22,032 nucleotides of DNA from the IMG/VR virus record IMGVR_UViG_3300046808_000928, positions 1 to 22,032 of that record, one strand, 5' to 3'. The position numbers and the translations under genes were made by a program. Under the pieces are notes generated by a model. The model saw only the letters and a list, made by a program, of their open reading frames with translations, was not told the origin of the DNA and did not search any database. The first letter of the stretch is position 1. Each line of letters opens with the position of its first letter. The stretch is from a virus. This document shows, piece after piece, positions 872 through 16,481 of this stretch.

Positions 872-2950
872 TTAAACACCACCGTTTATTCTTGCTGCAG
901 TATTTAAAGTTGTTTCCCATGTTTCGGCACTTACTTTATGATTTATTTTAGTAACAGTAAAAAACATTTTACCTGCATATCTTCCGGGTATTAAATTAGT
1001 TGTAACTGCATCACCAAACTTAAATCCCGATATACCATCAACTGTAACTGAAAAATCTATCGGATACAAAGCATTTTTCATCCAGTGACCAGGATCAGAT
1101 TTTTTGTTTTGAACGAGTGCTGATTTGTACGAATCACCCCATGCAGTATTTATACCGGCAGTTGAAATAGCATTTTCCAAGTCCTTTAATGCCTGTGTTG
1201 CAGGATTTAATGGTGTTTGTCCTGGAACAGAAACATCACTGTCACCACCACCACCTCTTGCTGCAGTATATGCAGCGGTTGCAAGTGGTCCGGGTGGTTT
1301 ACATGATATTGAAACCGTTTTTATCATAGGTCTAAATCCACTTGCTTCAAATCTAAAAGCTTTCACATTTGGGTTATATGTGAAATCTTCTACTGATAGA
1401 ACTGCTACTTTGCTACCCACACCACCACAGGTACTAATTTTTTCAACTACTGTTGCACCTAATTGCCAATGATTACCACACGCTTCGTTTACTCTTTTTA
1501 CTAATTCATTTAGAAAACTCGTCAATGCCTTCTCACCAACATCAGTTGATTTTTCAGTAAAAAATTTACGCCAAGTATCTTTAACATGATCAACAGATAA
1601 CCAAATACCACCAAGATATGCAGGCGTATTGTTCATTGTTACATTACCGGTTGGACCTTTCAAGTCTATTCCGTCTGTGCCTGAATATGGTTGAACAAAA
1701 TCCCACAACACTTCCATAGGATATGCAGATTTTAGATAATCATATTTTTGCAATTCCGATTCATTTCTTGTTATATCGACTTTCATAAAAGATTGTAATT
1801 TACTTGTTTTCAAATACCTATTTATAAACTCCTCAATTACCTGTAATGATATGTAATAAAACTTTTTTACAATTGGTTTTGTTATTTGTCCAGAACTACC
1901 AGCTGCACCACCAGATGATGTACCAGCAGAACCTGCAGAACCAGATGAACCTCCTGCTAAATCAGTTTTAGTAACTTCATTGGTTGCTGGTGGATCCGGT
2001 TGCCATGGAATACCAACTGCTGCGTATCGTAATCCATAACCACTTGGACCATTATGGCTCTGCACTTCCCATGCCTTTATACCATATAATTGTTCCGGAT
2101 CAGCAGGATTTCCAGAAGGAACTTGTCCCGATGCACCCGATGTCCCGCTTGTTGATTGAACTGGATTTATTACAGACATATCTTGATCTATACAAGTTGC
2201 TAAATCATGGCCAACTATTGGTATATTTTTAGGGTCTAATGGATTGAATCCACCAGATGAACCTTGATTTGTATTTGTATTGCTAGAATTAGCAGCTGTT
2301 CCACCAGCTGCATTTGGAGCACTTGCAAATTGTGATGTTGTGGTTGTGTTAGTAGATTGTTGACCAGGAGCACCAACTGCCAGTGTTGCTGCCGATACCA
2401 CTGAAACTTGTGCACTAACAGACATATCTTGATTTACCGCCCAATTGAAATTATAGATTATACCAGAAAAAGTAAATTTAGAAGCACACGGCTGAGCAGC
2501 ATAGGTTGACCAACCAAATGAAATACCACAACTCTTTCCAGGAACAAAATAAGCACCCTCAATCGCACCCAATGCCATAGATGATCTATTAACCTCTGGA
2601 TAAACAGTGAAACTAAATGTTCCTTTTATCAAAGATCCCATAGTTCCTTCATTATTTACATCGATTCCGTTTAAAAGCGGTAACTTTGGTAGATGTCTTC
2701 TTGATGAATATAGACTTAAATCACCGAGTTTATCGGATGCTAATGTACTTCCAGGAAAACCAAGAGCAACACCAGCACCACCACCAATTCTTCCCCATGA
2801 CTTTTTACCATAAGACCAATATAATCCAGTCTCGTTTCCCTTTCCACTTGTTCTAATCTTTCTACCATAGAAAGAAGCACGGGCTGTCATTTCACCGCCA
2901 ACTGCTACTTGTTGAACAAAAGGACTTTTAATATCAAGTGTGTATGCCAT
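872..2950 (-). CDS. Putative baseplate hub protein (gp27/gpD-like) with low-complexity linkers
   Basis: This 692-residue protein is probably the central baseplate hub that links the tail tube to the spike. Two parts support this. The N-terminal half has the segment at residues 108-150 (GTFSFTVYPEVNRSS...FVPGKSCGISFGWS). The C-terminus (last ~60 residues) reads VTVDGISGFKFGDA, then FTVTKINHKV and ETWETTLNTAARI, a layout typical of gp27/gp44/gpD hubs, whose last domain ends in a W-T-T strand. Between them are Gly/Ser/Ala/Thr/Asn-rich linkers at about residues 195-235, 264-285 and 331-355, which are unusual for a hub. The ATG is 2 nt after the LysM gene's stop; a GAG overlapping that stop is the only ribosome-binding signal, so translational coupling is likely. 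The hub call rests on pattern memory and gene order; a spike-bearing fusion or other baseplate protein is the main alternative. Confidence 0.65.
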   Translation of the reverse strand: MAYTLDIKSPFVQQVAVGGEMTARASFYGRKIRTSGKGNETGLYWSYGKKSWGRIGGGAGVALGFPGSTLASDKLGDLSLYSSRRHLPKLPLLNGIDVNNEGTMGSLIKGTFSFTVYPEVNRSSMALGAIEGAYFVPGKSCGISFGWSTYAAQPCASKFTFSGIIYNFNWAVNQDMSVSAQVSVVSAATLAVGAPGQQSTNTTTTSQFASAPNAAGGTAANSSNTNTNQGSSGGFNPLDPKNIPIVGHDLATCIDQDMSVINPVQSTSGTSGASGQVPSGNPADPEQLYGIKAWEVQSHNGPSGYGLRYAAVGIPWQPDPPATNEVTKTDLAGGSSGSAGSAGTSSGGAAGSSGQITKPIVKKFYYISLQVIEEFINRYLKTSKLQSFMKVDITRNESELQKYDYLKSAYPMEVLWDFVQPYSGTDGIDLKGPTGNVTMNNTPAYLGGIWLSVDHVKDTWRKFFTEKSTDVGEKALTSFLNELVKRVNEACGNHWQLGATVVEKISTCGGVGSKVAVLSVEDFTYNPNVKAFRFEASGFRPMIKTVSISCKPPGPLATAAYTAARGGGGDSDVSVPGQTPLNPATQALKDLENAISTAGINTAWGDSYKSALVQNKKSDPGHWMKNALYPIDFSVTVDGISGFKFGDAVTTNLIPGRYAGKMFFTVTKINHKVSAETWETTLNTAARINGGV

Positions 2951-2952
2951 AA

Positions 2953-3288
2953 CTACTCATTTTCAGTATATCTATCAAACAATGCTGCAATTCCTGTATA
3001 TTCATCGTAATACGGTATTCGTATTATTTTTCCAGGAGGAATTGTCAGCGATCCTTTTCCTAAATTATTAACTTTAGCAATAACATACCAAAGTGTTTCA
3101 TCTCCAAAATATTCTAATGCAAGTGTATCTAATCTATCACCTTGTTGTGAAACAATTTGAACATCCTTATTATTTGCATAATCAGAATACATCACACTGG
3201 ATAGTCTACGAATTCTCTTCGTATTACCATCTGAATCTATTTTTTTAGAATTATTTATTATACTACAACCGTCATATCTGCTAGGCAC
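2953..3288 (-). CDS. LysM-domain baseplate protein (gp53-like)
   Basis: This small protein of 111 residues has a LysM-type fold in its second half (about residues 43-93): VQIVSQQGDRLDTLALEYFGDETLWYVIAKVN, then a PPGK-IRIP ending. In contractile tails such a small LysM protein (gp53 in T4, gpX in other phages) sits in the inner baseplate near the hub. The place here, directly before the hub gene, fits that role. The start is GTG at 3288: an in-frame TAA lies six codons upstream and no ATG exists between, while AGAG sits 5-9 nt ahead of the GTG. T4 gp53 is larger (196 residues), so this is a compact version. A host-wall-binding LysM is less likely because there is no enzyme domain or export signal. 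Confidence 0.75.
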   Translation of the reverse strand: MPSRYDGCSIINNSKKIDSDGNTKRIRRLSSVMYSDYANNKDVQIVSQQGDRLDTLALEYFGDETLWYVIAKVNNLGKGSLTIPPGKIIRIPYYDEYTGIAALFDRYTENE

Positions 3289-3358: not shown

Positions 3359-6300
3359 TTATCCGCCACCCGCATTTGTTCCGGTTCCACCACCAGTTGC
3401 TCCACCACCAGTTGCTCCACCTCCACCGGTGTCTGTTCCCTCGGGTTCTTTATCTGTACCATCTGTTGATATAATTGCACCAATTTCTTTATCAGCGGTA
3501 GCATTCTGTTTTTTTGCTTCATCTTGAAGATCTTTAGTTGTTTGTGGTCTTTGAGTAACCGGAACATCTTCCGCACCCAATGGAACTGCAACGAATTCGT
3601 CTTGATCACCTCCACCTTCATCGAATGTTCTGAAATAATTTACAACTGTGTTTGAAGTCGGAGCAATACCATTTGGTGTACCTGCAAGGTCATCATCATA
3701 CAATGGATACATATATGTATTTCTTTCAGGACGATAAACACCGATAACAGTAAATCCACAAGACACTTGTATAGTCTTAGGTAGTTGTAAAACACCAGGA
3801 CTTGATATATTTTTTGATGCACCCGCGAGATCGAAATCTTCTTTTAATTGAGATGTCTCCCATGTACCACCAACATTGTCAAATGTATATGACAATGAAT
3901 TGATAAATCCAGGTGTCTTTCTAAAAAGATGACCTATATTTAATCTACATAATGGAGCTTTTATGAAGCCACCGGTTGTATATTCTGGTGCAGTCCATGA
4001 TGCTAGATAATTTAATTTACGCCATGATGCTTTCATTTCATCACGAGAACCGATATGTACGGTAAATCCAAAACTAACATCTCTCTCATAACTTCCAAAA
4101 GTATAAATTGGATCTCCTCTACCCATATAATTAACAGGACTCCAACTTGGTTTGTGGTTATCTGTTATACTATCAAAAGCAGCACGGAAAACAATAGCTT
4201 CCGCAGGCGCTCCTTTCCCACCACCTTTTATTTTTGCACTTGTAAAATAGAAAGATACTAAATCTTCAGCACCAGGAAGGTTTGAATCTGAGTTAGAACC
4301 CAATTCATAAACATAATTATTATCAACCCATCCTGTTTTATTTTTCTTGAAGTCAATAATGTTTATTCTATCACCACGAAACTTATAACCTTGACCAGAT
4401 TTTAATTTTGGTGTTGGTGTTCCGTTCTTATCTTGATAAATAACATTAGACTTAAATGGAAGATTTTTTTGATTACCAGGTTCACCTTGTTTACCAAATC
4501 CATGATTAATATCCAAGTTATATTTGTGATAACGGATAACTTTTGGATCGGAAGAGAAGAATCCCGGAACAACTTCTTTATTTGGATCAGTATTTTCTGC
4601 ATTAAATAAATCATGTCTGAAATCGTTGTATTCATTTGAACGATCACCGGCTCCTTTTTTTACTCTTGCTAATTTTGAATAAGCAACAGAAGAATATTGT
4701 TTATGTGGAGCATCAATTGGTTTTTCTTCCGTTGGTGTTCTTTCCAATATTTTGTTAGCAGGAGTAAATAAGTCCTTTGATTTAGCACGAAGTCTATCGT
4801 TAAATGAGATATATCTTGGATCAAATGGAGTTGCTTCTGGTTTTTTAAGGAAATCCAAAGTTGATGTTTGTATATCAACATCACCTGTGTATGTTCCATT
4901 TTCATCGTTTCTTGCTTTTGCACCACCCAACAGATAAGAAAGTGCGGAAAGCATACCATCCACTTTATTTTGTGTTGTTACAGTGAATGTGTTGTTTATT
5001 CTAAATGAATATCTACTATCAATTTCACCACCACCTGCATCACGAGTTAATGCACCATAAAATATTTCTCTTTTAGCAGTAGACGGATATTGACTTGGTA
5101 GTACCGCAGCAGTATTGTATATGCCCAAATATGGATGTGATGAACGGTTTATAACTGTTTCCGAAACATTTTTTCCGGAATTAGGACCGTTTGTACCAGA
5201 CAATCTTACTATTTTTGAATTTATAGATGGTTCTTTATACTTACCATTTGTTTTTGAATTAACTGGTATCAAAGTTGATGGTAATAATTCACCAACAAGA
5301 GCAACTAATCTATTATAGGGATATGCATATCTATTAGATTCAGTTGGTATATCTGTTCTTGGTATTTTCCAATTAGTCTCATCCCCAGCAGGATTCAATG
5401 CAAGTGTTGTATTCTCATATCTGTTTGTTGATGAGTCTGATGGATCATTTGTACTATCTTCACCGTGTCTAACTTTCAATAGTCTTAATCCACCATCGAT
5501 ATTCTCAATAGTAGAAATTAATGATGACTTATTAAACAAACGATTTATTGGTTGATTATTATTTGCGGTTGCCGAGTCATTTGGGTTATAATCAACAAAC
5601 GGATTTAATTTATAGAGTCTATCTTGTAGTTCAACCCATCGTTGTCCTTTGTTTGAATTTAACCAACCGGATATTCTTTTTACATCCGCTTCTTTTATAT
5701 TGGATAACAATGATTTATTATCACCGAATGTTTCATTTTCAAAGTTACCCTTCTCTTGTATTCCTCTTAATACAAATGGTTGATTTGGTGTATCTTTGTT
5801 ATAAGAAGCATCCAACAATGAATATTTACCATATTGTGTATCAAGTTGACCATCCATTGACCATCTTGCAAGATAACTTCCGTTCAATCCAGTGTCTTTC
5901 ATTGTTCGTTCATACTTGTTCAAATATGAACCAGGAGCGGACTTCATTTTTATAGAAGGAACTTGATTTTCAAGTGTTGCAAATAATGTACCATTTGCCC
6001 AAGGGCGTTTGCCCAAAGATAATGGAGCAAATTCTTCACCGTTTGAAGTTGTTAATCCACCAGCAGACCTTGCTGATTGTATAGCGTATCTATCGGAAAG
6101 TGATGCATTATAACTCAAACCAGGATTGATTATAGGATACAATGTACCATCGTTTTGAGACATCTTTGGTAAAAATCCTTTTCTCGTGGATAAGGTATAA
6201 CCAAAAAAGTTTGTTACTGGTTTATCAAGTGCAATAGATTTATTAGTTCCACTTTCAGTAGAAAGAATAGAATAGGCGGAAGCATAATTTGTTACGGTCT

Positions 6301-9300
6301 TATCGGATGCAAATGATTGGAATCCTCTACCTGCCTGTGTTCTATTGTTTCTTTGTGCAACATCCAAATAATCTTTACCGGTTGGATTTCTTGTCAATCC
6401 AAAGTAATTTATAGTTGGTGCACTTGTTCTGTTACCAATCCAAGTAAATCTTGATGATTCGGTTTTATATTTTGTTTCTTCGTTTTCTCTGGCAAATTTA
6501 TGGAAACCACTCGTTGTATTTTTATTTGATAAATCAAAATAATTAACAGTTGGTGCCTCTTCTTTACCACCTGTGAAAGTTAAGAATGATGTTTCCCAAT
6601 TATATTCAGTTATAGGTCTTCCACTTCCCTTTGGCATAATATCCAAAGTAAATCCAGTTTGATTGTCATCTGGAAAGAAATTAGTTGGTGATGGTCTTGT
6701 TCCTGCAAATGTAAACCTTGATGATTCTGTTTTATATTCAGTTTCAGGATTACTTGCACCTTTTGCCATTATATCAAGTGTGAATCCACCTTGATTATCA
6801 TCTGCGAAGAAATTAACAGGTGATGGTCTTCCACCAGTAAATCCATAGAAAGATGATTCGTGTAGATATTCAGATTCAGGAATACCAGCATTTCTTTTTA
6901 TGTTTTGTGAGAACCCAACTGCATTTGTATCTTGAAACCAATTTGCTCCTTCACCTGGAAACTGACCAACAAATCCGTAAAGTGATGTTTCGTGTAAATA
7001 TTCCGTATCTGGATTACTTGAACCCTTTGGCATTATATTAAGAGTAAATCCTGGAGCATTTAGATTTTCAAAATAATTTACGCCTTTTGCTGGGAATTGT
7101 CCTTTGAATGTAAATTCAGATGAGTCTTTTACATATTTACTATCAAGTTTTTCAGCAAGTTGATGGAAACCAACAGTGGTAAATTTTCCAGATATATCAA
7201 AGTAATTAACTTCAGGAGCAGATCCTCTTCCACCATCCCAATCATATTGTGATGATTCTTTTACATATTTTGAATCCAACATCTGTGCAAGTCTGTGGAA
7301 TCCAACAGTTGTATGTTTACCAGATATATCGAAGTAATTAACTTCTGGAGCAGCACTTCTACCACCATCCCAATCAAATTCAGAAGATTCTTTTATGTAC
7401 TTACTATCATACTTCTGAGCAAATGTGTGGAAACCAACGGTTGTAAATTTTCCAGTTAAATCAAAGTAATTTACAGCAGGAGCAGAACTTCTACCGCCAT
7501 TCCAATCAAACTCGGATGATTCTGGAATATATTTTGAATCATATTTTTCTGCAAATGTGTGGAATCCAACAGTGGTAAATTTTCCAGTTAAGTCAAAATA
7601 ATTTACAGACGGTGCAGAAACACGAGCACCATTCCAATCGAATTCAGAAGACTCTGGAATATATTTTGAATCTAACTTAGCAGCAAATGTATGGAATCCA
7701 ACAGTTGTATGTTTACCAGTTAAGTCAAAGTAATTGACAGCAGGAGCAGAATCTTTTTTTCCATCCCAATCGAAGTCAGATGAATCTGGAATATATTTTG
7801 AATCTCTCAATACTGCAAATGAATGGAATCCAACGGTTGTGTGTTTGCCAGTCAAATCAAAATAGTTTACAGTTGGTACATCAGACTTACCACCATCCCA
7901 ATTGAATATGGATGCATCCTTTATGTATTTTGAATCGTATGTCTGTGCAAAAGAATGAAATCCAGCACTTGTACTTTGACCTGATAAATCAAAATAGTTT
8001 ACAACTGGAGCAGATTCTTTACCACCATCCCAATCGAATACAGATGAACCTTGAACATATTTTGATTCGTATGTTTGTGCAAATGTATTAAATCCAGCAT
8101 TAGTATTTGTTGAATCTAAGTCAAAATAATTTACAGCAGGTGCAGATGCAGGATTACCTTTCCATGTAAATTCAGACACATCTTTTTTATACTTTGAATC
8201 ATATTTTTGAGCAAACGGATGAAATCCATCGGTTGTATATTGTTTTAACAAATCGAAATAATTTACAGCAGGTGCATTCTCTACTGAATTACCATCCCAA
8301 TCAAATCTTGAAGAATCTGGAATATATGAAGATGCTAAGAATTGACTAAATGTTTGAAATCCTTGTGATGTATGTTCACCCAATAAATCTAAATAATTTA
8401 CTCCAGGAGCTGCTTGTTTATTTCCAGACCAAACAAATTCGGATGCATCCGGAATATATTTAGAATCACCCCTAACAAAAAATTTATTAAATCCACCAGT
8501 TGTTTTCGGTACACCCAAATCAAAATAATTTACTTCTGGAACCGCTTCACGCTTTCCTGGCCAACCAAACCTCGATGAATCTGTTTTAAAGTTTGTTTCC
8601 AACATAGGAGCAAATGTTGTGAACCCATTTGTTGTAACTGTCTTACTAACATCAAAATAATTGACAAAGGGTATTTTTACAAAAGAATATATTGATGTAT
8701 TGTTTTGATATAATGTTTCAGTTGGATCTATAAATAAAGTAAAACCACGACCATTTTTATCCGAGAAGGCATTTGTAAATGGTGCATTTTTTGGTGATCC
8801 AGCCCAAACATATTCGGATTGTCCTGTGAATTGAGTCTCTCCTACTTTTGCATTTCTATTAAAACCTGATGCATTAACATTTGAAAAGAAATCAACTGAT
8901 TGTTGTCCTACAATAGACAATAATGAGTTGGAAGGATTTTCATGTCTTCCACTCAAAACAGTTGGTGTTATACCATCTAAATTCAATTCACTGTTATCGT
9001 TTTCTAATTTACTTAAACCACTATATCGTATTGAATTAATTTCTTGTGTTGGTGTGAGTTTTTCTAATTGAGATGTTCCAACAAATCTTATAGGTCTTAT
9101 ATCTATGTTTAATTGACTTTCATCACCAAAATGATTTGTTCCATTTTCAACCCTCAATATTTTTGTATTAGGATTAACAACCAAACCTTCTTTGATGGTA
9201 TCTGTTATTATATTTGGAGTTTGTTCTGTTCTATCAAATGATAAACTCTTTCTCAATAATGCAATATCTGGATTAATAACATTGTTTATAGGTGAAAGTA

Positions 9301-10132
9301 AGTCTGTGTTAATGATTGCACTTTGACCTTCTCTGTTTATAGATAATGGAATTTTATTTATACGAATATTCGGATTATCTATATTATTAATTTCTTCGTT
9401 AGTGTTTTTAGATATATTTGGTGTTTCATTTTCTCGATTGAAAGACTGTTGCGGTCTTGAAATCTCTACCTTTGGATCAGTTATATTATTAACTGTCTCA
9501 CCTGTTTCTTTCTTTATATCGGGAGTGCTACTTGTTCTATCAAAAGAAAGTGGTCTTGATTGTACATCAATCTGAGATTCCAAGTTGTTTTGTCCAGATA
9601 CGGAACGATTAATCAGTGTTTCAGATGTATTCAATCTACTTTGAAATCCATCTCTACGAATTTCTGAGAATTTTGATGTTACCGTTTCAAGTGGAACTGC
9701 ACTTAATCCATTGGTTTCAATTGGATTAGTTTGAGGTGAATATTGAGAAATTGCATTTACCAATACACTTTCAAATGCTGTTTTTACTATATCATCTTGT
9801 TTAGTTGAATTTAATCTATCTTCAAGTGATTGAGTTTTTGTTGGTTTAACTATATCATCGAGTTTAGTAGAACCCAATCTTGTTTCAATTGGTTTATTGG
9901 TTGTAGGTTTTTGTATATCATCTAATCTTGATTTACCGAGTTTACTTGTTACACTAACAGGAGTTGGTTTTACTATATCGGGAGCATTATTTAATAATCC
10001 ATCTGTAATTGGTTGATTTACTGCAAAATTTTTGCTATTAGTTGCAATAGAAGAATTAGGAGTTAATTTATTATCCTTCGCAACCTCTGAACGATATTTT
10101 GATAAATCAGATTTTAAATCCACTAATGACAT
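3359..10132 (-). CDS. Giant repetitive baseplate/tail protein with tube-initiator-like C-terminal domain
   Basis: At 2257 residues this is the largest gene in the window. Layout: residues 51-118, four short DDIVKPT-type repeats about 21 apart; residues 194-327, four units of about 33-34 residues with (L)SFDR and TPNI motifs; residues 413-1245, about 20 units of about 44 residues built on VNYFDL...GFHTFA...DSKY...SSEFDWDG; residues 1260-1950, non-repetitive; residues about 1957-2150, a domain containing NYMGRGDPIYTFGSYERDVS, WRKLNYLASWTAPEY and PGFINSLSYT. That last pattern is one I associate with tail-tube-like initiator/baseplate cap proteins (gp48/gp54 type). The tail end is Gly/Thr-rich. 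ATG is preceded by CAGGAA (9 nt gap) and by an ATATTTAT motif 24 nt upstream. It lies between tape measure and LysM genes, where T4 has its tube-initiator genes. The repeats' function is unknown; a fibre or collar structure anchored to the baseplate is an inference. Confidence 0.8.
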   Translation of the reverse strand: MSLVDLKSDLSKYRSEVAKDNKLTPNSSIATNSKNFAVNQPITDGLLNNAPDIVKPTPVSVTSKLGKSRLDDIQKPTTNKPIETRLGSTKLDDIVKPTKTQSLEDRLNSTKQDDIVKTAFESVLVNAISQYSPQTNPIETNGLSAVPLETVTSKFSEIRRDGFQSRLNTSETLINRSVSGQNNLESQIDVQSRPLSFDRTSSTPDIKKETGETVNNITDPKVEISRPQQSFNRENETPNISKNTNEEINNIDNPNIRINKIPLSINREGQSAIINTDLLSPINNVINPDIALLRKSLSFDRTEQTPNIITDTIKEGLVVNPNTKILRVENGTNHFGDESQLNIDIRPIRFVGTSQLEKLTPTQEINSIRYSGLSKLENDNSELNLDGITPTVLSGRHENPSNSLLSIVGQQSVDFFSNVNASGFNRNAKVGETQFTGQSEYVWAGSPKNAPFTNAFSDKNGRGFTLFIDPTETLYQNNTSIYSFVKIPFVNYFDVSKTVTTNGFTTFAPMLETNFKTDSSRFGWPGKREAVPEVNYFDLGVPKTTGGFNKFFVRGDSKYIPDASEFVWSGNKQAAPGVNYLDLLGEHTSQGFQTFSQFLASSYIPDSSRFDWDGNSVENAPAVNYFDLLKQYTTDGFHPFAQKYDSKYKKDVSEFTWKGNPASAPAVNYFDLDSTNTNAGFNTFAQTYESKYVQGSSVFDWDGGKESAPVVNYFDLSGQSTSAGFHSFAQTYDSKYIKDASIFNWDGGKSDVPTVNYFDLTGKHTTVGFHSFAVLRDSKYIPDSSDFDWDGKKDSAPAVNYFDLTGKHTTVGFHTFAAKLDSKYIPESSEFDWNGARVSAPSVNYFDLTGKFTTVGFHTFAEKYDSKYIPESSEFDWNGGRSSAPAVNYFDLTGKFTTVGFHTFAQKYDSKYIKESSEFDWDGGRSAAPEVNYFDISGKHTTVGFHRLAQMLDSKYVKESSQYDWDGGRGSAPEVNYFDISGKFTTVGFHQLAEKLDSKYVKDSSEFTFKGQFPAKGVNYFENLNAPGFTLNIMPKGSSNPDTEYLHETSLYGFVGQFPGEGANWFQDTNAVGFSQNIKRNAGIPESEYLHESSFYGFTGGRPSPVNFFADDNQGGFTLDIMAKGASNPETEYKTESSRFTFAGTRPSPTNFFPDDNQTGFTLDIMPKGSGRPITEYNWETSFLTFTGGKEEAPTVNYFDLSNKNTTSGFHKFARENEETKYKTESSRFTWIGNRTSAPTINYFGLTRNPTGKDYLDVAQRNNRTQAGRGFQSFASDKTVTNYASAYSILSTESGTNKSIALDKPVTNFFGYTLSTRKGFLPKMSQNDGTLYPIINPGLSYNASLSDRYAIQSARSAGGLTTSNGEEFAPLSLGKRPWANGTLFATLENQVPSIKMKSAPGSYLNKYERTMKDTGLNGSYLARWSMDGQLDTQYGKYSLLDASYNKDTPNQPFVLRGIQEKGNFENETFGDNKSLLSNIKEADVKRISGWLNSNKGQRWVELQDRLYKLNPFVDYNPNDSATANNNQPINRLFNKSSLISTIENIDGGLRLLKVRHGEDSTNDPSDSSTNRYENTTLALNPAGDETNWKIPRTDIPTESNRYAYPYNRLVALVGELLPSTLIPVNSKTNGKYKEPSINSKIVRLSGTNGPNSGKNVSETVINRSSHPYLGIYNTAAVLPSQYPSTAKREIFYGALTRDAGGGEIDSRYSFRINNTFTVTTQNKVDGMLSALSYLLGGAKARNDENGTYTGDVDIQTSTLDFLKKPEATPFDPRYISFNDRLRAKSKDLFTPANKILERTPTEEKPIDAPHKQYSSVAYSKLARVKKGAGDRSNEYNDFRHDLFNAENTDPNKEVVPGFFSSDPKVIRYHKYNLDINHGFGKQGEPGNQKNLPFKSNVIYQDKNGTPTPKLKSGQGYKFRGDRINIIDFKKNKTGWVDNNYVYELGSNSDSNLPGAEDLVSFYFTSAKIKGGGKGAPAEAIVFRAAFDSITDNHKPSWSPVNYMGRGDPIYTFGSYERDVSFGFTVHIGSRDEMKASWRKLNYLASWTAPEYTTGGFIKAPLCRLNIGHLFRKTPGFINSLSYTFDNVGGTWETSQLKEDFDLAGASKNISSPGVLQLPKTIQVSCGFTVIGVYRPERNTYMYPLYDDDLAGTPNGIAPTSNTVVNYFRTFDEGGGDQDEFVAVPLGAEDVPVTQRPQTTKDLQDEAKKQNATADKEIGAIISTDGTDKEPEGTDTGGGGATGGGATGGGTGTNAGGG
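6398..8896 (-). repeat. About 20 tandem ~132-bp coding repeats (VNYFD units)
   Basis: Residues 413-1245 of the 2257-residue protein are about 20 head-to-tail units. The [V/T/I]N-F anchors fall at residues 413, 453, 490, 534, 578, 623, 667, 711, 755, 799, 843, 887, 931, 975, 1018, 1064, 1106, 1150, 1196 and 1241, so the period is 44 with small deviations. Units starting at 755-975 are nearly identical (units at 843 and 887 differ at 5 of 44 residues), while flanking units diverge. Units at 1018-1150 form a second subtype with GFTLDIM in place of GFHTFA. Conserved positions are mostly aromatic (NYF, GFH, KY, FDW). Confidence 0.92.
9152..9553 (-). repeat. Four ~33-residue N-terminal repeats (SFDR/TPNI units)
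   Basis: Residues 194-327 of the 2257-residue protein contain four units with the anchors PLSFDRTSSTPDI, QQSFNRENETPNI, PLSINREGQSAII and SLSFDRTEQTPNI. Each is followed by a NN-I-(D/N)P-(K/N/D) stretch (TDPKVEISR, DNPNIRINK, NPDIALLR, NPNTKILR). They are polar, Asn/Thr-rich and more diverged than the 44-residue units. Their meaning is unknown; an extended, repetitive binding strand is one possibility. Confidence 0.8.
9779..9982 (-). repeat. Short DDIVKPT repeats at the N-terminus
   Basis: Residues 51-118 of the 2257-residue protein carry PDIVKPT, DDIQKPT, DDIVKPT and DDIVKT at a spacing of about 21, with R/K-L-x-S-(T/R)-K/L preceding the last three. This resembles a chain of short linear motifs rather than a folded domain. 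Confidence 0.8.
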
Positions 10133-10179: not shown

Positions 10180-13100
10180 TTAAACTTTGCGTCCATAAGA
10201 ATTATCTATTCCAACATTATATGAATTTTTTAGATTAATTGTAGACTTTATTTCATCTATTACTCTATCACCAAACTTAATAACAGTTGGTTGATTTGCC
10301 GCAGAATTTATTGCATTTATAAGTGCATCCAATCTTGCCTCAACACCAGACATATTAACAGTTGAACCACCAGCACCGCCAGCTCCACCGGCTCCACCTG
10401 CTTGAGTTGCTCCCATTGGAGATTCGCCCATAGTTGATTGTTGCATTGGAGAGAATCCTTTTTCTCCAGATTCTTGTGATTCACCACCACCAAATAGACT
10501 ACCAAGCGCACCACCGACTGAACCCATAATTCCAGAAGCAGCTGATCCCAATCCACCGGCAACACTACCAATTACACCACCGATAGATTCTGCCATTTTT
10601 TGAAGTGGTTCTAATGCTGCACTCAATTTTGCGTCTATACTTTGTAGTACCAATAATTCAGGTGATTCTGTTTGTTCTCCACCACCTCCACCACCCATAG
10701 CATCCATTGCCGCACCAACTTGTTGTGTTGCACTCGCGTTAGCAACAACTGAACCTTGTGGTAGTGATACAACTTCTGGACCGTTTTCACCAACTAATGT
10801 TGCACCACCTTTTTTAATTATACCACCGGTAGCAGCTGCACCCATCATTTGAACTTCTTGTTTAAGTCCTTCTGCATCACCATCCATTGCCAATTGTTGA
10901 GCACGAGATCCGTCTGGATAATCTTTTGGATTCATGGAAACACCGCCACCTGCACCTTCACCACCTGCTGATTTTTGTAGATAAGCTGCAGCAGCTCCTG
11001 CTGCACCCCCACCGGCTTTTGCGGTTGCTGGTTTTGTTCCTCCTGCACCCTTTGTTTCTTCCGCTTTTTTCTCTGTTTCTTCTTCACCACCACCAAATAT
11101 ATCAAGAACTCCAGAAACTTTGTCAGTAATACTTGTTATAGAACCCATGAAATTATCAAACAACCCTTTTACTAAATCAAATGGTGCCATAATAAAATCT
11201 TTTATACCATTACCCATGGTTTCAAGACCACCCATGATGTCACCATTGAACATCTGTACCAAACCATCTATTATGTTTGTTACCAAATCAAATGGTGCCA
11301 TTACATAATCTAATACAAGTTTACCTATGTTTTGAATGTATGTACCAATATCACCAAACACACCTGTTGCAAAATCAAAAAACTTAGTTACAGAACCTTT
11401 TAAGTTTGTTCCAAAAATTGAATCTATTGCACCAAAAATTGTTTCATATATCATTTTAGGCAGACCAATGAACAAATCATAGAACATTTTGCCAACACCA
11501 TCTATTGCACCCTTGAAATCTCCGGTAAATAATTTTACAACGGCTCCGATTAAATCGGCAAAAAGTGTAATTGGTGTAACAAGTAATGTTGCAATTATAT
11601 TACCAACCGCAGTTATTACAGGTTGTAGTTTTTCAAATATACCCTTTATAGTATCCATCGTTCCAGCAGTCTCTTTACCAGATTCTTGTGCAGGGAATAG
11701 TGGTTCAAATGCCTTCTTTACAACATCAAATAAACCAGTGAATGTTGTAAATATTCCTTGAAAAGCCGTCCATAGAGGAGTTACTATTGCAGTCCAGAGT
11801 ATTTTCATAGGAGTGATTAACATACTAATTATTGCAGATCCTAATTGTGTTACAACCCCAAAGACAGATGATATTACATCATTTATTTTTGTAAAAATAT
11901 CTCCAATACCGCCAACACTTCCAGCTCCTGAACTAAATACTGAAAATATTCCTGTTATGAGATCTAATATTGGTGATAATAAACCAAATGCAAGTTTAAA
12001 TGGTTGAACCATTACATTAAAAATTATTTTACCAACACCCATCAATACCTCAACGATAGGAGACAACACAGAAAAGATACCGTCAAAAATACCAACAAGA
12101 CCACCCCCAACTTCCTTTGCATCAAACATAGAATGAACCATGCCAACAATAGGAGCAATTAATTTAGTTGCAGCTTCTTTTATCTTGGTCATAATGTCTT
12201 GTAAGTTTTCTGCCATGGTAGCAGATTCTTTTTCAGCCGCAAGTTTTTCTATGTATGCTTTTTGTTGTGCGTCAGTTGTATTTTTTAATTTTTCAGCAAG
12301 TTGTTCTTGATTCATGTTTTGTAGTTCGGCTATTTTATTAGAATCCAAACCAATATCTCTATACTCTTGTGCCTTGGTAAGCATCTCAGTCATTTCATCA
12401 ACAGACATACCCATAGCATCTGCCATAGATTTCTGTTGAAGTCTGTTCATACTTTGGAATTCGGATAAAGATCCAGCTTGATTCAACAACTCATCTTGCA
12501 ATCCAGCAATATCACCATTTAATGCAAGTTGTCTAGCAGCATCCAAATTCAAATCTCTACCAGTCAATACTCTGGCTTCCATCTCTTTTGCGAGAGATGC
12601 TTCAATATCCAACATACCATCACCGATGTCTTGGACTTTTTTCAAATCCATACCCAACATCTTTGCCTTTTGTGATGCCTTAATAAGTGATTCAGTACCA
12701 CCCTTGAATGCAACAGCAACGGATTTAGGAACATCTGCAAGTGCTTTCATAGCGGCTTTATCGGTCATAAGACCTTTACTCAATCCTTGACTCTTTGATA
12801 CAAGTGAACCCATAGATTCACCGGTTAGTGTTGCAAGTGATTTTATATTACTTATTTCATCTGCACTCATACCGAATTTTTCACTAAGTACGGTTGCATC
12901 TTTAGCAAACTGTTCGAGTTCTTTATTACCACTCTTTATCTGAGAAGCAACATCAAGTCCACCCATGATGTCACTAACGGTTGCCATTCCCTTTACAACT
13001 TCTTGTGTATTGACACCAACTATCCCCATATCCTTTGCCATACCCCTAGCAGCAGATTGTGTCTTTAATGCTTCGTCTTTTGTACCACCTAATGTTTTTT

Positions 13101-14271
13101 GAATTTCTGAAACGGATTTATCAACATCCATAAACGAACCGATGATAAGTCCAACCGCAGCAAGTATAGCAAATATAATAACTTGTGGTCCTGCCATCAG
13201 AGCAGCACCAAATGATTTTGCACCGGCAACAAGAGATTGCATACCGGCCGCACCACCTTGTTGAAATCCAGTAACTACATTTGTTAGAGAATCACCCAAA
13301 TTCTTTTTAAGTGAATCTTGAACTTCATTCAATCCAAGTGCCTTAGTTATTGCAGCACCACCTGGAATTTTTGAAACAGCGGCTTCCATTCCATCAAACA
13401 CACCACCAAGTTTAGTCTGTTCGATAGTACCCCTTATTTTATCGGCGGTCTTTAATATTTTAGCCTGCATTTCTGCATCTTTCATATTTTGACCATTCAT
13501 TTCTTCTTTTGCGTAGTATTGGTCTTGTAGTATTTTTTGTTGTTCTTTTAATACTTCAACTACTTGAAATTGACCTGCGTTCATTGCAGCATCCATTTCT
13601 ATTTTAATTCTTGATAATCCCAATATTTCACGAGATGTATCTAACTCGATAAACTTACCTTGTCTGGCCGCCTTTTCCGCTTCCGCCTTATCAATTATAT
13701 TTTCCAAAACAAGTGCATTCGTACTTGCAAGTTCTCGTGTTGCTCTTAAAAGACCTTCTTGTTCTGCGCCTTCTTCCGAAACAACCTTCTGTAAACTATC
13801 TGCAATATCTAATGCTTCCCTTCTTGCCTTCTGGTATTCTTTGGATGATTTTAGAGTTGAGTCACCGTACTTGTCTATTCTTTCGTATTTTAATTTTAAA
13901 CTTTCAGCAGTGTCACTTGCTTGTTTTTGTATGATTTCGTTCTCTTTTGAAATCTTTGCAGTATTCTTAGTTACTTCTACTATTTTTTGTTGTGCAGCAA
14001 GTTCTTTTTGTTTTAATTCGTCACGCTTCTTATCACTTACTAATTCTTGACCAGTTAGACTTATTATCTGTTTATTGACGCCTTGTCTTTGTTTTTCTAA
14101 ATCTAATGCACGAGACTGAATATCGGCTATCTCTTGAAGATTTATTTTATCTTCACGAGAAAGACCGACCAGTTTATCACGAAGATCGATGAGTTGGCGA
14201 GTAATATCCGCCTCTTGTGCCCTAAGATTTTTAATATCTTCAGCATCTCTTTTATTTATTTCTTCTGCCAT
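10180..14271 (-). CDS. Tail tape measure protein
   Basis: This 1363-residue protein sets tail length and occupies the tube lumen before DNA release. Residues about 1-290 are charged, heptad-rich coiled coil (DIKNLRAQEADITRQLIDLR...). A strongly hydrophobic stretch at about 356-378 (GPQVIIFAILAAVGLIIGSF) and a long amphipathic, aromatic/Ile-rich region at about 700-1010 follow; the latter has internally similar units (TPITLFADLIGAVVKLFTGDF; APFDLVTNIIDGLVQMFNGDI). At about 1147-1178 is GGIIKKGGATLVGENGPEVV followed by SLPQGSVV, a signature I know from many tape measures. The C-terminus is Gly/Ala-rich. It follows the gp26/gp51-like chaperone pair, as expected. At 0.15 nm per residue of helix the protein could span up to roughly 200 nm. 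ATG at 14271 has GAG 5 nt ahead. No terminator is seen after it. Confidence 0.93.
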   Translation of the reverse strand: MAEEINKRDAEDIKNLRAQEADITRQLIDLRDKLVGLSREDKINLQEIADIQSRALDLEKQRQGVNKQIISLTGQELVSDKKRDELKQKELAAQQKIVEVTKNTAKISKENEIIQKQASDTAESLKLKYERIDKYGDSTLKSSKEYQKARREALDIADSLQKVVSEEGAEQEGLLRATRELASTNALVLENIIDKAEAEKAARQGKFIELDTSREILGLSRIKIEMDAAMNAGQFQVVEVLKEQQKILQDQYYAKEEMNGQNMKDAEMQAKILKTADKIRGTIEQTKLGGVFDGMEAAVSKIPGGAAITKALGLNEVQDSLKKNLGDSLTNVVTGFQQGGAAGMQSLVAGAKSFGAALMAGPQVIIFAILAAVGLIIGSFMDVDKSVSEIQKTLGGTKDEALKTQSAARGMAKDMGIVGVNTQEVVKGMATVSDIMGGLDVASQIKSGNKELEQFAKDATVLSEKFGMSADEISNIKSLATLTGESMGSLVSKSQGLSKGLMTDKAAMKALADVPKSVAVAFKGGTESLIKASQKAKMLGMDLKKVQDIGDGMLDIEASLAKEMEARVLTGRDLNLDAARQLALNGDIAGLQDELLNQAGSLSEFQSMNRLQQKSMADAMGMSVDEMTEMLTKAQEYRDIGLDSNKIAELQNMNQEQLAEKLKNTTDAQQKAYIEKLAAEKESATMAENLQDIMTKIKEAATKLIAPIVGMVHSMFDAKEVGGGLVGIFDGIFSVLSPIVEVLMGVGKIIFNVMVQPFKLAFGLLSPILDLITGIFSVFSSGAGSVGGIGDIFTKINDVISSVFGVVTQLGSAIISMLITPMKILWTAIVTPLWTAFQGIFTTFTGLFDVVKKAFEPLFPAQESGKETAGTMDTIKGIFEKLQPVITAVGNIIATLLVTPITLFADLIGAVVKLFTGDFKGAIDGVGKMFYDLFIGLPKMIYETIFGAIDSIFGTNLKGSVTKFFDFATGVFGDIGTYIQNIGKLVLDYVMAPFDLVTNIIDGLVQMFNGDIMGGLETMGNGIKDFIMAPFDLVKGLFDNFMGSITSITDKVSGVLDIFGGGEEETEKKAEETKGAGGTKPATAKAGGGAAGAAAAYLQKSAGGEGAGGGVSMNPKDYPDGSRAQQLAMDGDAEGLKQEVQMMGAAATGGIIKKGGATLVGENGPEVVSLPQGSVVANASATQQVGAAMDAMGGGGGGEQTESPELLVLQSIDAKLSAALEPLQKMAESIGGVIGSVAGGLGSAASGIMGSVGGALGSLFGGGESQESGEKGFSPMQQSTMGESPMGATQAGGAGGAGGAGGSTVNMSGVEARLDALINAINSAANQPTVIKFGDRVIDEIKSTINLKNSYNVGIDNSYGRKV

Positions 14272-15475: not shown

Positions 15476-16444
15476 CTAAACTGATTTCTTATACCAATCA
15501 ATCGTGGATTTCAAACCATCTTCAAAATTTATAAGTGGTTTCCATCCTAATTTTTCTTGTGCCTTAGTTGAATCTACGGCATATCTTCTATCGTGTCCTA
15601 ATCTATCTTCAATATAGTTTATTAAATCTTTCGATTTTCCCATCGTTGATAATAATAATTTTACTATATCTATATTTTTCCATTCATTATCCGAACCGAT
15701 GTTATAAACTTCACCATTCTTTCCCCATTCATAAGCAAACCAAACTGCTCTACAATGGTCATCAACATGAATCCAATCACGAACATTTAGTCCATCACCA
15801 TAAATTGGCAGTTCTTTACCTTTCAATATGTTTGTTATCATTAGTGGTATCAATTTTTCGGTATGTTGTCTTGGTCCATAGTTGTTTGAACAACGAGTTA
15901 TGACTGTTGGGACACCGTAAGTGTGATAGTATGACCTAACAAAACAATCGGCAGATGCTTTTGCCGCTGAGTACGGTGAGTTTGGTAGAATTCGTGAGTG
16001 TTCGTTGAACTTTTCGGTAGAATTTAATTCTAAACTACCATAAACTTCGTCAGTAGATACTTGAACGAACTTTTTTATCCCCAAATCTTTAGCAACGGTC
16101 AAAAGTGAAACAGTTCCTACTATGTTTGTGTCTATAAATGGTTTTCCATCTACAATTGACCTATCTACATGAGATTCCGCAGCAAAATTTATTATACCTT
16201 CAACATCATGGTTAATACAAATCTCTTTAATTAGTTCTGTATTACAGATGTCTGCGTGATAAAATAAATAATCTTCATTATCTGAGAATTCTTCTACATT
16301 TTTTGGATTTCCAGCATAGGTTAGTAAGTCTACATTCACAATTCTGATATTCGATAGGGGTATGCCCAACATCATGTGAATAAAGTTACTACCAATAAAA
16401 CCACAACCACCTGTTACGAGGATAGTTCTTTTTTGATTTGACAT
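15476..16444 (-). CDS. rmlB: dTDP-glucose 4,6-dehydratase (RmlB/RfbB family)
   Basis: This is an extended short-chain dehydrogenase of 322 residues that converts dTDP-glucose to dTDP-4-keto-6-deoxyglucose, the branch point to rhamnose and other deoxysugars. Visible motifs: the NAD-binding GGCGFIG at residues 12-18, the STDEVYG catalytic block (Thr-Asp-Glu) near 126-132, YSAAKASAD (catalytic Tyr and Lys) near 157-165, then NNYGPRQHTEKLIP and the RDWIHVDDHCRA substrate-domain segment. Length and motifs are those of a complete enzyme. I chose the ATG at 16444: a TTG three codons upstream has AGGG only about 3 nt ahead, too close, whereas the ATG has it about 12 nt ahead. No partner genes (rmlA, C, D) are in the window. 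It lies between tail tube and chaperone genes as a single-gene unit with a leader motif on each side, which looks like inserted metabolic cargo. A related nucleotide-sugar dehydratase specificity cannot be excluded. Confidence 0.93.
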   Translation of the reverse strand: MSNQKRTILVTGGCGFIGSNFIHMMLGIPLSNIRIVNVDLLTYAGNPKNVEEFSDNEDYLFYHADICNTELIKEICINHDVEGIINFAAESHVDRSIVDGKPFIDTNIVGTVSLLTVAKDLGIKKFVQVSTDEVYGSLELNSTEKFNEHSRILPNSPYSAAKASADCFVRSYYHTYGVPTVITRCSNNYGPRQHTEKLIPLMITNILKGKELPIYGDGLNVRDWIHVDDHCRAVWFAYEWGKNGEVYNIGSDNEWKNIDIVKLLLSTMGKSKDLINYIEDRLGHDRRYAVDSTKAQEKLGWKPLINFEDGLKSTIDWYKKSV

Positions 16445-16481
16445 ATAAAACAAAACCCTACATTCATTGACATTACTGCCA

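Follow-up and report, generated by a model that had tools for sequence, protein, structure and literature searches.

A giant putative tail-tube initiator with an array of conserved 44-residue aromatic repeats in uncharacterized environmental myoviruses

The 22-kb stretch of IMG/VR viral DNA analyzed here (22,032 nucleotides, referred to as the window) carries on its minus strand a phage tail module of the contractile type, which includes a gene for a protein of 2,257 aa (positions 3359..10132, minus strand; an open reading frame with homologs). Based on the predicted fold of its C-terminal part and its gene neighborhood, this protein is very probably a tail-tube initiator that bears a giant extension at its N-terminus. 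This extension contains three repeat families in series, with units of 21 aa, of 34 aa and, in the third, an array of aromatic 44-residue units. As this array is strongly conserved and is not predicted to fold by itself, we propose, at roughly even confidence, that it serves as a multi-site docking chain on the putative initiator.

The genes of the module are arranged in the order sheath-stabilizer-like, sheath, gp19-like tube, gp26-like baseplate hub, tape measure, 2,257-aa protein, LysM/wedge-like and hub-position. Directly upstream of the giant gene lies the gene for the tape measure protein (1,363 aa, identified by PHROG hits; 10180..14271, minus strand), and directly downstream a gene for a small LysM/baseplate-wedge-like protein (2953..3288, minus strand), followed by that of a 692-aa protein assigned to the hub position from gene order (872..2950, minus strand). 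The order of tape measure, giant protein, LysM protein and hub is retained in approximately 50 loci, and the small LysM gene is conserved in 53 related loci. An earlier note on this DNA had described the product as a baseplate-region protein, and the location of its gene between the tape measure and the LysM/baseplate gene bears this out.

The array is anchored by a C-terminal tail-tube-like domain (residues ~1924–2146; 3695..4363, minus strand), which was absent from the earlier note. Structural modeling with AF2 (53 sequences) predicts a confident beta/alpha domain in this region (pLDDT ~80, in a model with an overall pTM of 0.41). Of the top Foldseek matches in the PDB, almost every one is a chain from the tube or baseplate of a contractile system (9gtp, pyocin 6u5b, 7b5h, and T4 5iv5). 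Matches in VIA (Z 7–8.7 across 108–160 residues, close to the noise level quoted for the tool) were to P1, AFP/PVC, the 'baseplate-initiators' of A-1(L) and T4, and among those in BFVD were gp48 proteins of T4-like type ('baseplate tail tube cap'). In their predicted fold, the last ~200 residues resemble the tube-starting proteins of the T4 baseplate, R-pyocin, cyanophage A-1(L), and Mu. In profile searches, the domain had no match in the PDB and a single, uninformative one in PHROG (E 0.04).

In T4, the tube polymerizes on a platform made up of gp48 and gp54 (PMC3004832), and the hexameric tube initiators of Mu and A-1(L), gp43 and gp18, respectively, are found beside LysM elements (PMC11915804, PMC10966104). 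With these proteins, as well as the pyocin R2 and eCIS equivalents, the giant protein shares a predicted tail-tube-like domain and a gene located beside those for the tape measure, a LysM protein and the hub (PMC3004832, PMC10966104, PMC11915804). The tube-like predicted fold, together with a gene flanked by those of the tape measure and the LysM protein, makes a tail-tube initiator the best identification. The proteins differ considerably in size, as T4 gp48/gp54 are 35–40 kDa and the matched solved chains at most 446 aa, whereas the giant protein counts 2,257 aa, with ~1,900 residues preceding the domain; the three serial repeat families also set it apart from known initiators. Solved tube initiators are small ring proteins, and here the protein bears in addition over 800 conserved residues that belong to a repeat without a named family.

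The N-terminus of the protein (residues 1–45; 9998..10132) contains the motif M[AS]LxDLKSDLSKFR, identified by alignment, which is kept also in several distant relatives without the 44-residue array. It is followed by three 21-aa repeats of the L-S-K-DDI-KP type (residues 65–127; 9752..9940) and four 34-aa repeats of the SFDR..TPNI..INNI.NP type (residues 195–330; 9143..9550; all on the minus strand). The earlier note had reported about 20 aromatic 44-residue repeats at 6398–8896, and a unit profile readily recovers these at residues ~412–1251 (6380..8899, minus strand), as 19 units with a weak partial unit on the N-terminal side. Most domain E-values of this profile are between 1e-7 and 1e-25, with nothing comparable elsewhere in the protein, and TRF independently identifies a period of 132, equal to 44 codons, at the DNA level. 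The spacing is as regular as described (44–45 residues for all units but the first, which has 37–41). The main-type units (residues 520–1004; 7121..8575, minus strand) are most alike in the center of the array, and the second subtype, rightly placed on one side, comprises four units on the C-terminal side (residues 1005–1181; 6590..7120, minus strand), after which two more ordinary units are present. The central units had been called nearly identical, which they are not: neighbors at residues 697–1004 share 63–88% of their residues and 68–78% of their DNA.

The consensus of the unit is SxFDWDGxRxxAPxVNYFDLxxxxTTxGFHxFAQxYDTKYIxES, in which two motifs are conserved, A (SxFDWDGxRxxAPxVNYFD) and B (TTxGFHxFAQxYDTKYIxES), and aromatic residues make up 17% of the array. 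The linker between A and B usually has few residues and in some clades tens, and another clade inserts residues between units instead. In some lineages the linkers lengthen the units to 57–100 residues and motifs A and B persist. Expanded units of this size were observed in relatives L150, L168, L128, and L152; those of L150 (11500–14300) count 70–72 residues, with 99% identity across 132 bases in one pair of neighbors, a young expansion. C-terminal to the array, AF2 predicts a helical element (residues ~1475–1543; 5504..5710, minus strand; pLDDT 66–90), part of which is conserved in the alignment with the LR756508 relative.

A profile search identified at least 535 IMG/VR loci with the C-terminal domain, of which 80 were kept, roughly 50 of them in the array-bearing group and about 30 outside it. 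The 44-residue unit is carried by over 50 IMG/VR contigs and by Microcystis phage Mel-JY01, in numbers of 9–21. It was found only in this protein, and every complete ORF with the array that was checked also has the C-terminal domain. Among 84,980 prokaryote genomes no contig encodes the repeat, and none of 11 pattern matches was a relative. At the protein level, Mel-JY01, for which the deposited host is Microcystis elabens, is the one named relative with the array. Its protein WWT39329 (2,255 aa), annotated as hypothetical only, has the same architecture with 21 units and 37% identity across 97% of its length; its central units are closer to one another, at up to 97% aa identity. By the C-terminal domain alone, homologs are present in Immutovirus, in the uncultured phage LR756508 and, via distant relatives, in Rhodothermus phage RM378. 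Immutovirus gp035 (Flavobacterium phage, 716 aa) and RM378 p067 (458 aa) have a homologous C-terminal domain and similar neighboring genes, but are far smaller than the window protein; a scan of gp035 revealed no 44-residue units, and p067 would, at 458 aa, be too short for such an array. In LR756508.1 (L004:3753–8498; a 484-kb phage record), dozens of ~20-residue acidic repeats replace the aromatic array before the same C-terminal domain. Array-less relatives carry unrelated short repeats at the same N-terminal place, namely ~18-aa GRH repeats (L077, L082) and ~18-aa Y-D-QS repeats (L074, L085), so that repeat arrays seem to have arisen several times. The group represents widespread, uncharacterized environmental myoviruses, the relatives of which placed other repeats at this site.

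The earlier impression that the repeat belongs to no characterized family is upheld. None of seven single units scored above the curated cut-off in Pfam, where single-unit matches are sub-threshold, and searches by sequence gave no convincing match in the PDB. Pfam matches on the array to RNA_capsid, WDGH and others, including the RNA_capsid score of five units taken together, were rejected because they add up matches that individually lie below threshold; no single unit passes. The PHROG matches on the array, to many unrelated families of unknown function, were likewise rejected. Modeling of five central units (AF2, 103 sequences) gave a pLDDT of 41.6 and a pTM of 0.16, low values that may also reflect an oligomeric or unfamiliar fold rather than an extended chain, and the model contains no regular secondary structure and no helices of four or more residues. 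This speaks against the rod that had been suggested, if taken as a self-folding structure. At this low confidence, the five-unit model does not resemble the long, mainly helical chain of a tape measure, and a separate tape measure gene adjoins.

That the array is conserved although it is not predicted to fold by itself suggests that it folds upon binding a partner, and we infer from this the multi-site docking chain. In the proposed working, the C-terminal tube-like domain would form a ring on which the tail tube polymerizes, as in T4, Mu, and A-1(L), and the chain between the conserved N-terminal motif and this ring carries the 9–21 units of the family (19 in the window). The array would be an extended chain anchored at the tube–baseplate junction, of which each unit binds to, and probably folds on, a repeated virion surface, provided by neighboring copies, the rings of tube or sheath, the wedges or the tape measure. 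Together, about six such chains may serve to strap, or to measure, a part of the tail or the baseplate, and unit number would change as units in the middle are tandemly duplicated or lost. Large conserved repeats on a putative initiator, with others in its relatives, point to a task in tail assembly or the baseplate that is undescribed in the cited literature.

That the array has grown from its center, as proposed in the earlier note, agrees with comparisons of relatives. The units of L140 and L145 are colinear 1:1 except that one additional unit is present near unit 7; between L108 and L112 both array ends are 1:1 and the center is scrambled. The recency suggested for this growth does not hold in the window, where the best unit pair has 79% DNA identity and the divergence of neighboring central units indicates that they are not recent. 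Younger expansions are present in Mel-JY01 (up to 89% DNA identity) and L150 (up to 99%). Some array-less relatives contain one or two weak unit matches, suggesting that one or two ancestral units probably gave rise to the array by expansion.

Across the family, unit number follows tape-measure length, which we report as a lead (Spearman 0.77, 40 representatives; an approximate figure, as hand rules were used for merged or long units and the count of L163/L164 was hand-corrected). The relation persists after phylogenetic correction (r 0.59 for independent contrasts, with a sign-flip p of 0.009; the direction is shared by 20 of 28 contrasts) and is robust to the removal of single clades. The length of the array in residues was rejected as the correlate, being weaker than unit number because one clade has long linkers. 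A relation of this kind would be expected if the array were a second tail element scaled to length (a co-ruler or a lining of the lumen), with units that lie along the tube from the initiator ring and are as many as tail length dictates, and the lack of such a correlation for C-terminal length agrees with it. However, the N-terminal length ahead of the array correlates with tape-measure length too. Moreover, the tape measures of L155 (12 units) and L160 (9 units) are 88% identical and contain no gap of 5 or more, L128 and L152 are 2 units apart with tape measures of 1302 and 1300 residues, and the tape-measure difference between L140 and L145 is mainly one 45-residue low-complexity insert. At 23–29 tape residues per ring (Mu, A-1(L); PMC11915804, PMC10966104), ~45–60 rings are expected for the 1,363-residue tape, against about 19 units. 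We therefore consider such an element unlikely, and strict coupling of units to tube rings is rejected by L155/L160 and the ring counts. Slightly less probable still is a tube initiator with its own modular ruler or strap, in which 9–21 fold-on-binding units run from the initiator ring along the tail. If this were true, the contractile tails of the group would have two co-evolving length elements, tape measure and array; through the family-wide tie to tape-measure length, a second length element can be tested for.

Monomer predictions by AF2 can miss oligomeric folds, and an oligomeric rod or whisker projecting from the baseplate (e.g., a trimeric or hexameric beta structure) would be invisible to them. 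The alternating aromatic positions in the consensus, which suggest short strands, and the aromatic content are compatible with this, but linker insertions of 10–60 residues inside units fit a regular rod poorly and the domain that anchors the array is one of the tube axis, which is buried; this leaves a rod rather unlikely. The variable-length adhesin or receptor-binding array put forward in the earlier note would explain the tail location and a unit number that differs between lineages, yet it finds no support in the pattern of selection. The dN/dS of the array is 0.10–0.25 in close pairs, and in 10 of 11 it does not exceed that of the C-terminal part (the exception being L155/L160); such strong purifying selection argues against a fast-evolving adhesin, and the diversifying or relaxed selection expected of an adhesin or the binding part of a tail fiber is not seen. 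As unit number is 19 across most of the clade of the window and the array is fused to an internal tube-axis protein, an adhesin is very unlikely. Non-adaptive growth, with unit number drifting via replication slippage in a tolerated linker, would account for the confinement of turnover to the array center, for the unrelated repeats at the same place in relatives and for the 3 units by which L155 and L160 differ without a matching change in tape. It is opposed by the purifying selection on the unit sequence and the long constancy of unit number within clades, and appears distinctly improbable to us.

In the tail module of the window, a gene for a sugar-nucleotide 4,6-dehydratase (dTDP-glucose/GDP-mannose type; 15476–16453, minus strand) is located between the tube and gp26-like genes. 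Only 10 related loci have such a gene upstream of the giant one (70–84% identical), and it is missing there in Mel-JY01. Six contigs from different samples (L170–L174 and L199) share a 2,503-residue reading frame with equal unit counts, and unit number thus looks stable in these six.
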